From Sphingobacterium chungjuense (lineage in GTDB: Bacteria > Bacteroidota > Bacteroidia > Sphingobacteriales > Sphingobacteriaceae), in assembly GCF_011316935.1 (NCBI RefSeq), contig NZ_WLYS01000006.1, forward strand, positions 1 to 64,000: a stretch of DNA of 64,000 bases, written 5' to 3'. Shown here in pieces: positions 2,992 to 62,445 of this stretch. A program made the translations under genes and the position numbers. Below the pieces are notes generated by a model that saw only the letters and a list, made by a program, of their open reading frames with translations, did no database searches and was not told the DNA's origin. Each line of letters begins with the position of its first letter. The stretch's first letter is position 1.

Positions 2992-4359
2992 CTACACGGC
3001 CTGACTAAATCGAACCGGTAAAGTATCCGTTTCTTGGTGTAAATATTCATCAAATGCCGTACACACATTTCGTATGAGTGCTTTTCCCAATGGTGTAGCA
3101 CGCACTACATTATCCTTTACACGTACTAATCCATCAGTTCGCAGGGATTGAAGACGTTTTATGATCTGCGCATTCTTGCTCCTATCTTTGGGATCTAACA
3201 CCACTTTGTAGCGACACATCATCTCCAAAATATACCGCCGTGATTGCTCATCATCTTTCGATAATACATGCCCGCGCAAAACAGGCAATTCGTTTTGATC
3301 CAGTAGTCGATAATACTCCTCTACCGTTTTCACATTTTGTGCATAGGCCGACCATGCATCACTGATAGATGATACCCCCAAACCGATCAAGATCGGTGTA
3401 TAGCTATCCGTATAACCCATAAAATTGCGATGCAACGCGCCATTCTCTGATGCCAATAACAAGCTGTCACCAGGCAAAGCAAAATGATCCATACCGACTT
3501 CTTTATAGCCTGCTTCGACGATCATGCCTTTCCCGAGTTTATATAAATCCATTTTTTCTTTGCCTACCGGCAAATCCTTCTCACTAAAATGCCGCTGACC
3601 GGGCTTGATCCAAGGCACATGTGCATAGCTATAAAAGGAGATGCGCTCTGGCTTCATCGATAGTGCAACCGTAATCGTATCAAATACCGAATGTAGCGTT
3701 TGCAAAGGCAAACCATAAATCAAGTCGAAATTGATGGATGTGTAGCCAATGGCGCGCGCTTGCTCCATCACTACTTTCACATCCTCGACGCTTTGCTTAC
3801 GATTAATTACGCGCTGCACTTCGGGATCAAAATCCTGAATACCTAAACTAAGTCGTCTAAATCCAACATCATATAGCACCTGAAGGTGCTCTGCCGATGT
3901 ATTGGCTGGATGTGCTTCGAAAGAGAAAGCAGGATTGGCATCGAGCGTATTGCCTTCTAAGACCGCAGCGATGAGTTGACGTAAATTTTCTGGAGCAAAA
4001 AATGTAGGCGTACCACCGCCCAAGTGAATTTCTTTGATACGTAACGGCTGATTACCTAAAATGGTACGATACATTTGCCATTCTTTTATGACGGCATTAA
4101 TATAAGGCGCTTCCACCTGATGATTTTTGGTAATACGGGTATTGCAACCGCAATACGTGCATAAGCTTTCACAAAATGGCAGATGTATATAGACGCTAAT
4201 GCCTTGCGCTGGATCTTGGCCAAAGTTTTTCTGCAATTGAGTGATCCAGCCCGCCGCACTAAAACTAGCCTCATTCCAGCAAGGCACCGTTGGATAAGAG
4301 GTATAACGCGGAGTCGCGACGTTATATTTATCGATGAGCTCATTTAGATTATCGGACAT
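2992..4359 (-). CDS. hemN: Oxygen-independent coproporphyrinogen III oxidase
   Basis: 455 residues; makes protoporphyrinogen IX without O2 in heme synthesis, as a radical-SAM enzyme. The cluster motif C63-x3-C67-x2-C70 (CESLCTYC) is intact, preceded by VYIHLPF and followed by HLGGGTPTF. I place the start at MSDNLNEL: a clear Shine-Dalgarno GGAAGGAGG lies 8 bases before it, rare in this phylum. The frame is open to a Met nine codons earlier, but that Met lacks such a site. The start overlaps the end of the preceding gene by 11 bases, so the two are probably translationally coupled. Its place beside ccoI and an O2-sensing kinase fits low-oxygen induction. Confidence 0.94.
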   Translation of the reverse strand: MSDNLNELIDKYNVATPRYTSYPTVPCWNEASFSAAGWITQLQKNFGQDPAQGISVYIHLPFCESLCTYCGCNTRITKNHQVEAPYINAVIKEWQMYRTILGNQPLRIKEIHLGGGTPTFFAPENLRQLIAAVLEGNTLDANPAFSFEAHPANTSAEHLQVLYDVGFRRLSLGIQDFDPEVQRVINRKQSVEDVKVVMEQARAIGYTSINFDLIYGLPLQTLHSVFDTITVALSMKPERISFYSYAHVPWIKPGQRHFSEKDLPVGKEKMDLYKLGKGMIVEAGYKEVGMDHFALPGDSLLLASENGALHRNFMGYTDSYTPILIGLGVSSISDAWSAYAQNVKTVEEYYRLLDQNELPVLRGHVLSKDDEQSRRYILEMMCRYKVVLDPKDRSKNAQIIKRLQSLRTDGLVRVKDNVVRATPLGKALIRNVCTAFDEYLHQETDTLPVRFSQAV

Positions 4360-31047: not shown

Positions 31048-31800
31048 TTAGTAATTCAACCAGTTTTTGAACATAGGTGCTTTTTCTCGGCTAATGATGA
31101 CCTCCAATTCAGGGTTATTCTTAACGTCTACTTTTAGCTTTCCATTAAAGTAATTGTGCACTTGGCCGATGGCATCTACGCAAAGGATAAACTGCCGATT
31201 AGCGCGAAAGAAAACAGTAGGATCTAGCTGTTGTTCCAACTCTTCCATCGTGAGCGGGATTACTTCTTCATTGCCATCGGACAGATGCGCCCGCGTAATT
31301 TTCCACTCGGAATAAAAATAGATAACATCTTGCACCAGAATCGATTTGTATCCATCCTTGTATGGCAGTAAAAAACGCTTCCGAAACTTCTTTGGTTGAA
31401 AGAAGTTCATCAATCCTTCCAAAGTAGACTCATCCAACACGTGAGCCTGCTGCGACCCTAATTTGTCTAGAGCGGCAGACAGCTCCTCTTTCTCTACAGG
31501 CTTGAGCAAATAGTCAACACTATTATGTTTGAAAGCACGCACGGCGTACTCATCGTACGCTGTCGTAAAGATGATCGGACAACGAATAGGTTCTCGCTCC
31601 AGGATTTCAAAACTTAGGCCATCGGAAAGGCGCACATCCATCAGCATCAAATCCGGACAAGGATTTGCAGAAAACCACTCCACTGTGTCAGCTATGCATT
31701 CTAACACAGCGACCACTTCGACCTGCGGCCGAAGTTCTCTCAGCAATCTTTTTAAGCGATCGGCATTGGGTTTTTCGTCTTCTACGATGAGTATTTTCAT
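31048..31800 (-). CDS. LytTR-type response regulator
   Basis: 250 residues. Receiver domain (1-120) with ILIVEDE, phospho-acceptor D55 in LMLMDVRLSDG, TTAYDEYAV and LLKPV; LytTR DNA-binding domain (about 145-248) with FLLPYKDGYKSI, RANRQFILC and NYFNGKLKV. The start overlaps the end of the kinase gene by 4 bases. It sits just upstream of the RND efflux operon and likely controls it or itself. Confidence 0.92.
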   Translation of the reverse strand: MKILIVEDEKPNADRLKRLLRELRPQVEVVAVLECIADTVEWFSANPCPDLMLMDVRLSDGLSFEILEREPIRCPIIFTTAYDEYAVRAFKHNSVDYLLKPVEKEELSAALDKLGSQQAHVLDESTLEGLMNFFQPKKFRKRFLLPYKDGYKSILVQDVIYFYSEWKITRAHLSDGNEEVIPLTMEELEQQLDPTVFFRANRQFILCVDAIGQVHNYFNGKLKVDVKNNPELEVIISREKAPMFKNWLNY

Positions 31801-32885
31801 GGCTTAAACAATGGAAGAGTTACCGTATATATGTGTTCATCTTGATAAATATGCGGCGCTGCTGCGGATAGCAACTTGTATCGGCGATTGATATTCTTGA
31901 TACCGATACCCGAAGACGGAATCACCTTACTTAAAGGCATACGTGAATTTTCTACTTGCAACTGTGCAGCATCCGTCGTGAATATCCTAATTTGAAGCGG
32001 TCTTTTCTTATTAGTTTGGTTGTGCTTTAAAGCATTTTCGACTAAGAGTTGTAGGGTAAGTGGTGGCAAGTTATAAGAACGATATTCAGGATCTATCTGG
32101 ATATCAAATTGCACCCCCTCACCAAAGCGTTGCTCTATCAGATAGCGATAGGGCTCTAAAAATTTAAGTTCTTCCTCCAGTGTCAACATATCCTTCTTGG
32201 CATTCACTAAAAGGTATCGATAGATTCTGCTAAAATTTTCTGCATACTCATATCCCACCTGTTGATCCTCTAATATCAACTCCGAGAGCACACTGAGATT
32301 ATTGAACACAAAATGTGGATCGATCTGCAACTTCAATGATTGTAACTCCGCTTCCATAGCGACTTGACTGAGTTCTGCAGAGCGAATAGCTTCATTCTTC
32401 CAATTCTCCACCAGATAATTCCCAATATTGATCCCCATAATCACAAAAGAAATAACAATGCTAACCAAGATCCATTGCATGGTCTCTCTAGTTTCTGCTT
32501 CCATGGTCAGCGGATTGTTATCCAAGGGTTGTGTGTCGAATATCAGGGGACAAATAAAACTAAACACGAGATTAATCAACAGCACTGCGCTGAGATTCAT
32601 GATGGTCTCTGCTGCAAACCGTTTTCCCGGTTGCTGTGTCCAAGATATTTTTGTATTCAGCCACTTACCAATATGAATGCTCGATTCGGAGATCAAAAAA
32701 CAAAACAACAGGGAAGTCAGCAGATCCAATACGATATGGTCACCAGAACGTGCAAAAAAAGTTTTCCAATATACAGAAAACGGGTCTATCAAATAAACGA
32801 CAAGATAAAGCAATAGGTATGCCGACCCTACGAAAAGAATCCGCTTCCAGGTATTATTTAAAAAGCTCTCTCGGGTACGCTTCAT
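31797..32885 (-). CDS. LytS-type membrane sensor histidine kinase
   Basis: 362 residues. Four membrane helices (about 13-32, 43-63, 90-112, 135-155), a short coil, then the His_kinase domain with the phospho-acceptor His in LKLQIDPHFVFNNLSVL (about 190-206) and an ATPase domain with LLVENALKHNQ and GIGIKNINRRY. No extracellular sensor domain: the signal is probably felt within the membrane. Partner of the LytTR regulator. Confidence 0.92.
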   Translation of the reverse strand: MKRTRESFLNNTWKRILFVGSAYLLLYLVVYLIDPFSVYWKTFFARSGDHIVLDLLTSLLFCFLISESSIHIGKWLNTKISWTQQPGKRFAAETIMNLSAVLLINLVFSFICPLIFDTQPLDNNPLTMEAETRETMQWILVSIVISFVIMGINIGNYLVENWKNEAIRSAELSQVAMEAELQSLKLQIDPHFVFNNLSVLSELILEDQQVGYEYAENFSRIYRYLLVNAKKDMLTLEEELKFLEPYRYLIEQRFGEGVQFDIQIDPEYRSYNLPPLTLQLLVENALKHNQTNKKRPLQIRIFTTDAAQLQVENSRMPLSKVIPSSGIGIKNINRRYKLLSAAAPHIYQDEHIYTVTLPLFKP

Positions 32886-33359: not shown

Positions 33360-33389
33360 TTTGATAGTGTATTTTTTACACTATCTTTG
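33360..33389 (+). promoter_or_regulatory. Promoter with an internal dyad, before small-RNA candidate A
   Basis: TTTG (33360-33363), 18 bases, TATCTTTG (33382-33389). The spacer is itself a perfect inverted repeat GATAGTGTA-N5-TACACTATC (33363-33385) that overlaps both boxes, the usual geometry of a repressor operator. The presumed start falls near 33394. Confidence 0.65.
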
Positions 33390-33393
33390 TGTT

Positions 33394-33459
33394 ATCATAA
33401 TTTAGGTTTATAATTGGTTAGTAAAGGTTTTCATTCTCCCCGTTTGAAAACCTTTTTTT
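33394..33459 (+). ncRNA. Candidate small RNA A (or terminated leader), conserved 5' element plus C-loop terminator
   Basis: About 66 bases, starting just after a good promoter. 33395-33419 reads TCATAATTTAGGTT, then T, then ATAATTGGTT, and matches 24 of 25 bases at 62378-62402. It ends in stem AAAGGTTTTCA / TGAAAACCTTT (33423-33433, 33445-33455) with loop TTCTCCCCGTT and seven T. The other copy has a different stem but the same CTCCCCG loop core. No start codon and reading frame worth noting. It may be free or a leader that ends before the lipoprotein gene 80 bases downstream. Confidence 0.55.
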
Positions 33460-33539: not shown

Positions 33540-33740
33540 ATGAAAAAAACATCCCTTTTCGCAGTACTAGTACTATTTATAAGTTTTGTTACTGCTTGTA
33601 ACAGTTCAGAAGATAAGAACAAACATTCTCAACATGATGAATCGTATGATCAAGCAAATGCTTCAAGTGATACGTTACAACTGGATTCTGTAGTTAGTGA
33701 TTCCGTTGACTATAACCGACCAGAATCACCACGCATGTAA
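33540..33740 (+). CDS. Small lipoprotein, unknown function
   Basis: 66 residues from MKKTSLFAVLVLF; earlier in-frame codons run through the RNA element. Lipobox FVTAC (Cys 21), then a polar, disordered, acidic stretch (NSSEDKNKHSQHDE and more) with no fold. Lies downstream of small-RNA candidate A; read-through of its terminator would be one way to express it, as no other promoter is clear between 33460 and 33540. Confidence 0.72.
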   Translation: MKKTSLFAVLVLFISFVTACNSSEDKNKHSQHDESYDQANASSDTLQLDSVVSDSVDYNRPESPRM

Positions 33741-62305: not shown

Positions 62306-62377
62306 TAAAAAATATTTAAAAATAATTCGCACATCAGATAATATTGATATTCAAGTCGGCGTTATATATGTAAATTT

Positions 62378-62445
62378 TCATAATTTAGGTTAATAATTGG
62401 TTTGGTTTAAATCCCGTAGCTCCCCGCTACGGGATTTATTTTTTT
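62378..62445 (+). ncRNA. Candidate small RNA B, homologous to candidate A
   Basis: 62378-62402 reads TCATAATTTAGGTT, A, ATAATTGGTT and matches candidate A (33395-33419) at 24 of 25 positions. Then comes stem AAATCCCGTAGC / GCTACGGGATTT (62409-62420, 62426-62437), loop TCCCC, and ATTTTTTT. Stem sequences differ between copies while the loop core CTCCCCG is kept. The promoter is weaker than in A: TAAATTTT or TATATATG just upstream. The gap 62306-62630 holds only this element and AT-rich sequence; the next gene starts 186 bases on. Confidence 0.55.

Follow-up and report, generated by a model that had tools for sequence, protein, structure and literature searches.

Which kind of gene is the short element designated copy A (Table 1), found in a 64,000 nt stretch of the Sphingobacterium chungjuense genome (hereafter the window), and on what might it act? 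A preliminary description, made from the sequence of the window, had read it as one of two copies of a short RNA gene under selection. The evidence set out below makes it likely that the element is the gene of a 60–70 nt trans-acting sRNA, one of a paralogous family of the Sphingobacteriaceae, and that it acts in the manner of FopS.

Two copies of the element in the window

Copies A and B have a 5′ segment in common (TCATAATTTAGGTTWATAATTGGTT), which is unpaired in both folds. The 25-base TCATAATTTAGGTTTATAATTGGTT of copy A recurs at 62378-62402 with 24 of 25 bases identical, as had been noted earlier, and a 28-base pattern (up to three mismatches) gave exactly two matches in the window, where 0.00 were expected from shuffles. 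The promoter previously proposed for copy A (TTTG-N18-TATCTTTG) is present, and both the sequence and the folds bear out the two terminator hairpins, with stems of unrelated sequence and CTCCCCG at the tip of each. By itself CTCCCCG is unremarkable, occurring three times in the window (3.13 expected). Each copy folds into a single terminator hairpin with its 5′ part unpaired (z −2.10 and −3.98). The 5′ end of the copy A RNA, near 33394, is a hand estimate from the position of the promoter. Copy B lacks the TTTG/TATCTTTG promoter.

The sequences flanking copies A and B differ, and the two are therefore not parts of a longer repeat, so that a repeated DNA element, raised at the outset as an alternative cause of their conservation, fails as an explanation. 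Genes for a LytTR response regulator and a histidine kinase (window 31048-32885) adjoin copy A on the opposite strand.

Table 1. Features of the two copies and their upstream regions (window positions)
Feature	Position	Strand	Basis
Copy A element, proposed short RNA gene	33394-33459	+	
Copy B element, second window copy	about 62377-62445	+	
Copy A promoter: TTTG (33360-33363), 18 bases, TATCTTTG (33382-33389)	33360..33389	+	sequence
Palindrome GTGTA-TTTTT-TACAC between the copy A promoter boxes, possible operator	33367..33381	.	sequence
Copy A shared unpaired 5′ segment, proposed seed	33394..33421	+	pattern count, alignment, fold
Copy A terminator hairpin and T run	33423..33459	+	sequence, loop survey, covariation, fold
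Copy A stem AAAGGTTTTCA/TGAAAACCTTT	33423-33433/33445-33455	+	
Copy A loop TTCTCCCCGTT	33434-33444	+	
Copy B shared 5′ segment, variant with GGTTAATAAT	62377..62404	+	pattern count
Copy B terminator hairpin and T run	62408..62445	+	loop survey, fold
Copy B stem TAAATCCCGTAGC/GCTACGGGATTTA	62408-62420/62426-62438	+	
Copy B loop TCCCC	62421-62425	+	
Copy B upstream motif GGCGTTATATATG	62358..62370	+	read by eye

Size and distribution of the family

A 19-base core (TTTAGGTTNATAATTGGTT, at most one mismatch) is present in 13 copies in the S. chungjuense genome, 11 of them outside the window, and the reversed pattern is absent. All 35 other genomes of the genus carry the core at 5–37 copies each (reversed-pattern control, 0–1 per genome), which supplies the further copies expected of such an RNA by the preliminary description. 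Outside the genus, a single core match was found in 2 of 23 genomes. A covariance model recovered a diverged 14th copy in S. chungjuense (C11:649021-649104, E 1.2e-9) and matched 12 of 395 genomes sampled across the phylum, S. chungjuense counted. Nine of the 12 belong to the Sphingobacteriaceae, at least two other genomes of which gave no match in the same sample; the three outside it have E-values of 1e-4 to 4e-4 per genome and, since such values are weak over 395 genomes, some of the three may be chance matches.

An exact-match scan of a sample of named bacterial contigs returned at least 120 stretches; among the matches listed are Sphingobacterium, Parapedobacter, Mucilaginibacter, Olivibacter, Arcticibacter, one Pedobacter, one Rhinopithecimicrobium and some records with less precise names. 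The matches in L042, L150 and L160, which come from other groups and show no terminator hairpin, look like chance. One further genus (g27, genome G176) keeps the C-loop terminator behind a 5′ segment that has drifted, and retains the GTGTA palindrome in two of its three copies; two of them (L366 and L378) also retain CCATTCTCCCCGTCTGG. In L366, L378 and L383 of this genome the CCATTCTCYCCGTCTGG terminator is unchanged, but the 5′ segment before it is of another, ATTGGTTAG-like kind and in part duplicated. Locus L367 in genome G056, from another family, has TTTTCATAAAATAGGTTAATAT and a hairpin with TTCCC (E 1e-4), and is a possible diverged relative. BLAST searches with copy A gave no match to plasmids and one match of 39 bases among phage records, in an unannotated faecal record. 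No account of this family was found among the open-access papers searched and listed.

Stem, loop and neighbouring genes

In all, 176 distinct copies were gathered by their seed, so the constancy of the seed among them partly reflects how the sample was selected. The same holds for an alignment of 35 sequences, with rows hand-chosen across classes and genera, where 18 of 19 invariant columns are the searched motif itself. In the eight-pair stem of this alignment 88.4% of cells are paired (62.7% when shuffled). The stem has a covariation score of 0.776, compared with 0.310 for shuffled sequences and at most 0.258 with the partner slid; changes on both sides are seen in all eight pairs, which is not distinctive, as shuffles give 7.3. 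Together with the number of copies, the covariation upholds the initial view of a short RNA under selection. A covarying stem is expected for any conserved terminator, and the unusual part of the element is the loop rather than the stem.

A hairpin with a C-rich loop, followed by T's, is found in most collected copies, the commonest loops in 174 copies scored by a simple script being TCCCC (52), TTCTCCCCGTT (43) and CCCAT (41). In 352 kb of S. chungjuense DNA, surveyed for loops of 3–8 bases only, ten of 367 terminator-like hairpins have CCC within the loop, one of them copy B. Compensatory stem changes around a fixed CTCCCCG loop had been anticipated; the stem does covary, whereas the loop varies by class and is mostly C-rich.

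The prevalence of these loops would suit an RNA that acts mainly through a C-rich loop on G-rich mRNA, with the 5′ part accessory, as would the retention of CCATTCTCCCCGTCTGG in a second genus (L366 and L378 of G176) while the 5′ segment drifts. Variation of the loop between classes, and the presence of CCC at the loop in only 25 of 53 viral-contig copies, argue against such a mode of action, and we consider it quite improbable. Nor, in an unsystematic look at loop targets, was any evidence found for the earlier proposal of the C-rich loop as a pairing site; the complementarity to a class of genes described below lies in the 5′ segment.

One of the 176 copies is inside an ORF of at least 70 codons. 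Clustering of the nearest downstream ORF of each of 157 copies gave 119 clusters, none with more than 10 members, and 102 of these 157 ORFs are on the opposite strand; the upstream ORFs of 163 copies gave 99 clusters (largest 13). The larger clusters look like one locus in related species. Given that no neighbouring gene is conserved, the element is probably a free-standing sRNA gene. At both window copies the terminator hairpin precedes an ORF on the same strand, as a cis-acting leader or attenuator of a downstream gene (e.g., the small ORF 33540-33740) would, but the scatter of downstream ORFs over so many clusters and their frequent opposite orientation leave this very little likelihood.

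Promoters and an upstream palindrome

The copies were sorted by loop into class A (tyCTCCCCGtt, 48 copies), class B (TCCCC, 62), class C (CCCAT, 40), class D (7) and other (19), and the expected numbers of promoter motifs were taken from shuffled upstream regions. TAnnTTTG occurs in 40 of the 48 class A copies, 36 having it exactly at −19 from TTTAGG (3.5 expected anywhere), in 13 of 62 class B copies (3.9 expected) and in 15 of 40 class C copies, mostly about 60 bases upstream. A sigma54-like motif, searched with the loose pattern GGYAY-N4-6-TTG, is present in 28 of 62 class B copies, 18 of them with it at −34/−35 from TTTAGG (0.3 expected); elsewhere it is found in class A 0/48, class C 3/40, class D 2/7 and other 5/19. 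Sigma54 promoters have a consensus of GG at about −24 and GC at about −12, with fixed spacing, and RpoN is encoded in the S. chungjuense genome (E 7.6e-127). By hand count, the TAnnTTTG and sigma54-like boxes place the start of the RNA within about 5 bases of each other. Copy B has neither promoter type at the usual place, and its upstream motif resembles, by eye, that of several class B copies. The occurrence of the same seed behind at least two promoter-like motif types at fixed distances is new here, and the retention of one RNA output under a change of promoters would bear on why sRNAs are duplicated.

Many dispersed copies, some of them on contigs classed as viral, might also be left by a mobile DNA repeat or terminator cassette that spread by insertion and has no RNA function. 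The window copies differ in their flanks, however, the stems change by paired substitutions, the promoter motifs stand at fixed distance, and CCC loops are found in only the ten of 367 terminator-like hairpins mentioned above, so that this explanation is hardly credible.

Between the promoter boxes, 18 of 48 class A copies have the palindrome GTGTA-N5-TACAC at −34/−35, and three others have it in the same place. Loci with a seed, 936 kb in total, hold 15 such palindromes, 14 of them 34–35 bases ahead of a seed. The S. chungjuense genome has eight, a number comparable to that of the reversed control (7). Two are in class A promoters, one being that of window copy A, and another precedes the TTTAGG of a sigma54-type copy by about 60 bases. 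One lies between the phosphofructokinase gene (pfkA) and a divergent NUDIX + NrtR_WHD regulator (L398 1501-1515), one precedes a class II fructose-bisphosphate aldolase gene (L399 1501-1515), and one of the remaining three is near a lipocalin-like gene. The palindromes at pfkA and aldolase are a candidate glycolysis operator in Sphingobacterium, and we infer that the NrtR-type regulator beside pfkA binds the sequence. In Bacteroides, AraR of the NrtR family is arabinose-responsive, according to passages of PMC4666351. The sharing of the copy A promoter palindrome, as a putative operator, with two glycolysis genes, one of them beside an NrtR-type regulator, is new here, and may lead to a regulator that senses sugar and controls the sRNA.

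Complementarity to SusC leaders

SusC mRNAs were considered as targets because of the likeness to FopS revealed by Rfam (see below). The S. chungjuense genome has at least 56 SusC genes (TIGR04056, all above cut-off), of which 56 were scored; a second Sphingobacterium genome (G013) also has at least 56, and 50 of the 56 listed were taken. Start codons were picked by a simple signal-peptide rule. In the 56 S. chungjuense leaders (−80 to +20), AAACCTAA, TATAAACC, ATAAACCT and TAAACCTA, all of them seed complements, are among the most enriched 8-mers, with six occurrences each (0.3–0.4 expected) in a count blind to the seed. Another seed complement, ATTATGAA, is enriched as well, but anchoring on the start codon inflates its value. 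The genome has 27 occurrences of ATAAACCTAA; six of these are the sRNA read backwards, and three of the 21 others fall in these SusC leaders, which make up about 0.06% of both strands.

Duplex energies with the seed are −12.46 for S. chungjuense SusC leaders (56), −13.07 for those of G013 (30) and −10.31 for the leaders of 248 non-SusC ORFs of S. chungjuense (p 9e-7 and 4e-8 against these ORFs for the two SusC sets, respectively), energy alone being a weak discriminator in AT-rich leaders. The reversed seed gave no separation of S. chungjuense SusC leaders by duplex energy (p 0.33), and none of 200 shuffled seeds separated SusC from 143 intergenic controls as well as the real seed. Counting upstream sequence only, perfect matches of at least 8 bases are present in 33 of 105 SusC leaders (S. 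chungjuense 22/56, G013 11/49) and in 15 of 248 controls (p 1.7e-9). Among S. chungjuense duplexes at −12.5 or lower, which as predicted permit long loops, pairing reaches within +1 to +5 of the start codon in 12 of 25. Start codons show no enrichment of near-full seed complements (13 matches other than the sRNA itself, 12 in the control), and a simple full-length antisense reading was dropped for this reason.

SusC leaders were also taken from four genomes of other families of Bacteroidia that are without the exact seed (G036, G044, G049 and G056). A match of at least 8 bases was found in 12 of 33 (p 0.85 for the positives against these). The energy comparison with 16 other-family SusC leaders gave p 0.24 for S. 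chungjuense and 0.054 for G013, and p 0.14 when 13 weaker TonB-receptor leaders, left out of the match test, were added to the 16. The rows left out were two of 35 other-family SusC leaders (one of them, L332, too short), one of 50 from G013 and, in the energy test, L304. Complementarity is equal where the exact seed is absent, and the target signal thus does not track the exact seed. A seed-complementary stretch may be a general feature of SusC leaders. Alternatively, the other-family genomes may hold diverged sRNAs of their own, with L367 in G056 as one possible example, and because of this locus the four genomes may be unclean negatives.

The same equality would be expected if the sRNA family is real and its 5′ segment is mainly a site for an RNA-binding protein, or is directed at another class of target, with the SusC signal reflecting the A/C-rich style of the leaders. 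The 5′ segment also looks stricter than short pairing needs, though nearly all of its invariant columns (18/19) are the searched motif. On the other side, the SusC signal disappears when the seed is shuffled or reversed with its composition kept, and the 5′ portion of FopS is reported, in passages of PMC11697453, to serve in both target pairing and RbpB binding. We regard a mainly protein-binding or otherwise directed 5′ segment as unlikely.

We prefer a trans-acting sRNA, and the family probably turns down sugar-importing outer-membrane proteins. Its 5′ segment would pair with the translation-start regions of mRNAs for SusC-type (TonB-linked) transporters: UUCAU in the seed could mask the start codon (AUGAA), AGGUUWAU could anneal to a stretch like AUAAACC/UUAACC farther upstream, and ribosomes would be blocked by the pairing at both places. 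The different promoters would feed different signals into one repression of glycan import, candidate inputs being the sugar or glycolysis state via GTGTA-N5-TACAC, sigma54 and others.

Copies on viral contigs and behind tRNA-like genes

The seed was found in 58 IMG/VR contigs (L404–L461), and the covariance model, itself weighted towards the seed, gave a full-length match in 56 of them (not L406 and L421). Removal of repeats left 53 distinct sequences, L406 and L421 included. A simple script found a hairpin followed by T's in 37 of these and CCC at the loop in the 25 given above, and on these counts the family look is weaker on viral contigs than in bacteria. Genes for terminase and portal proteins were identified with PHROGs on contigs L411 and L420, which marks at least these two as tailed phages or prophages. 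A second, diverged match is present in L407 (2738), L433 (7460), L448 (3245) and L460 (6055). The copy at L055 (Sphingobacterium mizutaii), whose loop is GTGA, matches that of viral contig L414 at every base compared and is therefore probably a prophage copy.

In 17 of the 53 viral copies the 50 bases upstream contain a tRNA T-arm motif (0.95% of random windows), and ARAGORN predicts a tRNA ending 9–15 bases before TTTAGG in L407, L425, L442, L444 and L446. The T-arm motif also accompanies 13 of the 176 bacterial-locus copies, ten of them in Mucilaginibacter. At L041, L114, L144 and L159 (Mucilaginibacter), and at L142, one or two type II tRNA-like genes (GGTGGTGAAATTTT..GGCAGACACACCTCCTTGTC..) precede the sRNA; ARAGORN calls no tRNA at these genes, and by eye their anticodon loop looks enlarged. 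They are possibly tRNA-like non-coding RNAs. The presence of predicted sRNA copies on 56 IMG/VR contigs, many of them behind a tRNA-like 3′ end, is new here.

In Bacteroides, surface factors associated with sensitivity to phages include TonB-dependent or Sus-type receptors, as described in parts of PMC8375218 and PMC12118408. We tentatively raise the possibility that tailed phages, whose hosts are probably Sphingobacteriaceae, encode mimics of the host's multicopy sRNA, some from tRNA 3′ trailers, to shut down SusC transporters. Processing of the tRNA would help to make the 5′ seed of trailer-derived copies, and the phage would tap a host network that wires one seed to glycolysis, sigma54 and other inputs. 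Shutdown of SusC during infection or lysogeny might close the receptor to competing phages or throttle nutrient import, and a role of the phage copies in superinfection exclusion is speculation. The phage-contig copies behind tRNA genes raise the question of phage control over outer-membrane transporters.

Comparison with known RNAs

Judged by sequence, the analysis demonstrates a family with many copies, a shared 5′ segment, a covarying stem and a loop rich in C in most members; neighbouring genes are in general not conserved, and some copies are on contigs classed as viral. At the gathering score no Rfam family was found in the window, and a search of nine S. chungjuense loci at E up to 1 gave one miRNA-type match, which is not the element. 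The original statement that no named family fits holds in that none reaches the Rfam gathering score, but FopS of Bacteroides thetaiotaomicron (RF04319, BTncRNA_FopS) aligns with copy A over the full length of its model at 21.8 bits (gathering 56). The best S. chungjuense copy scores 23.1 bits, and no match above the cut-off was found in any of seven genomes.

Two other RNAs were rejected. Flavo-1 RNA (RF01705) matches positions 4176-4258 (+) and 799-879 (−) of L142, a Sphingobacteriales MAG, near the sRNA; these do not overlap the element, and Flavo-1 was set aside as its identity. Rfp18 of Flavobacterium psychrophilum is likewise a Bacteroidota sRNA conserved in its genus, and its deletion lowers two metalloprotease mRNAs. 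By its description its pairing region is in a third stem-loop, whereas the present RNA forms a single hairpin and its proposed seed is linear, and on that description (parts of PMC9723704) Rfp18 was rejected as the closest relative.

The closest known system is FopS, which represses susC translation in B. thetaiotaomicron, belongs to a family of paralogous sRNAs and has a phage-borne copy mentioned for it (parts of PMC11697453). The two are alike in size (about 65–70 nt there; 60–70 nt here, from predicted ends) and in having many paralogs (12–15 there; 13 here and 5–37 across the genus). Both have a conserved 5′ part holding CAU and AGGUUAAUA, followed by one Rho-independent terminator, the 5′ part being single-stranded (here from folds of two copies and the consensus of 35), and the predicted targets of both include SusC-like transporters. 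A promoter of the TAnnTTTG (sigma-ABfr) type is a likeness in part of the copies only (class A 40/48, class B 13/62, class C 15/40). By alignment, the AGGTTAATA core and CAT appear to be common to the FopS R1′ seed, with different spacing (TTTAGGTTWATAATTGGTT here, AUUUAAGGUUAAuAAAaGAuUGG in the FopS model consensus). The family described here differs from FopS in its sigma54-like and other promoters and its copies behind tRNA-like 3′ ends, and may differ in its mostly C-rich loop. GibS of Bacteroides has the R1 seed in common with FopS and carries a second seed, R2, and another promoter (passages of PMC11697453).

A search of the S. chungjuense genome for RRM_1 (PF00076), the domain of an RbpB-type partner, gave no match at E 0.001, with positive controls in Bacteroides ihuae and Synechococcus elongatus. 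Because the scores are below the Rfam cut-off and no RRM_1 protein was found, we refer to a FopS-like family and not to members of FopS; the RNA appears to be FopS-like in its working while standing outside the FopS family. FopS-type control of glycan importers was shown in gut Bacteroides, and a second, larger family in the Sphingobacteriaceae would suggest that repressing SusC through multicopy sRNAs is a strategy used more widely in the Bacteroidota.
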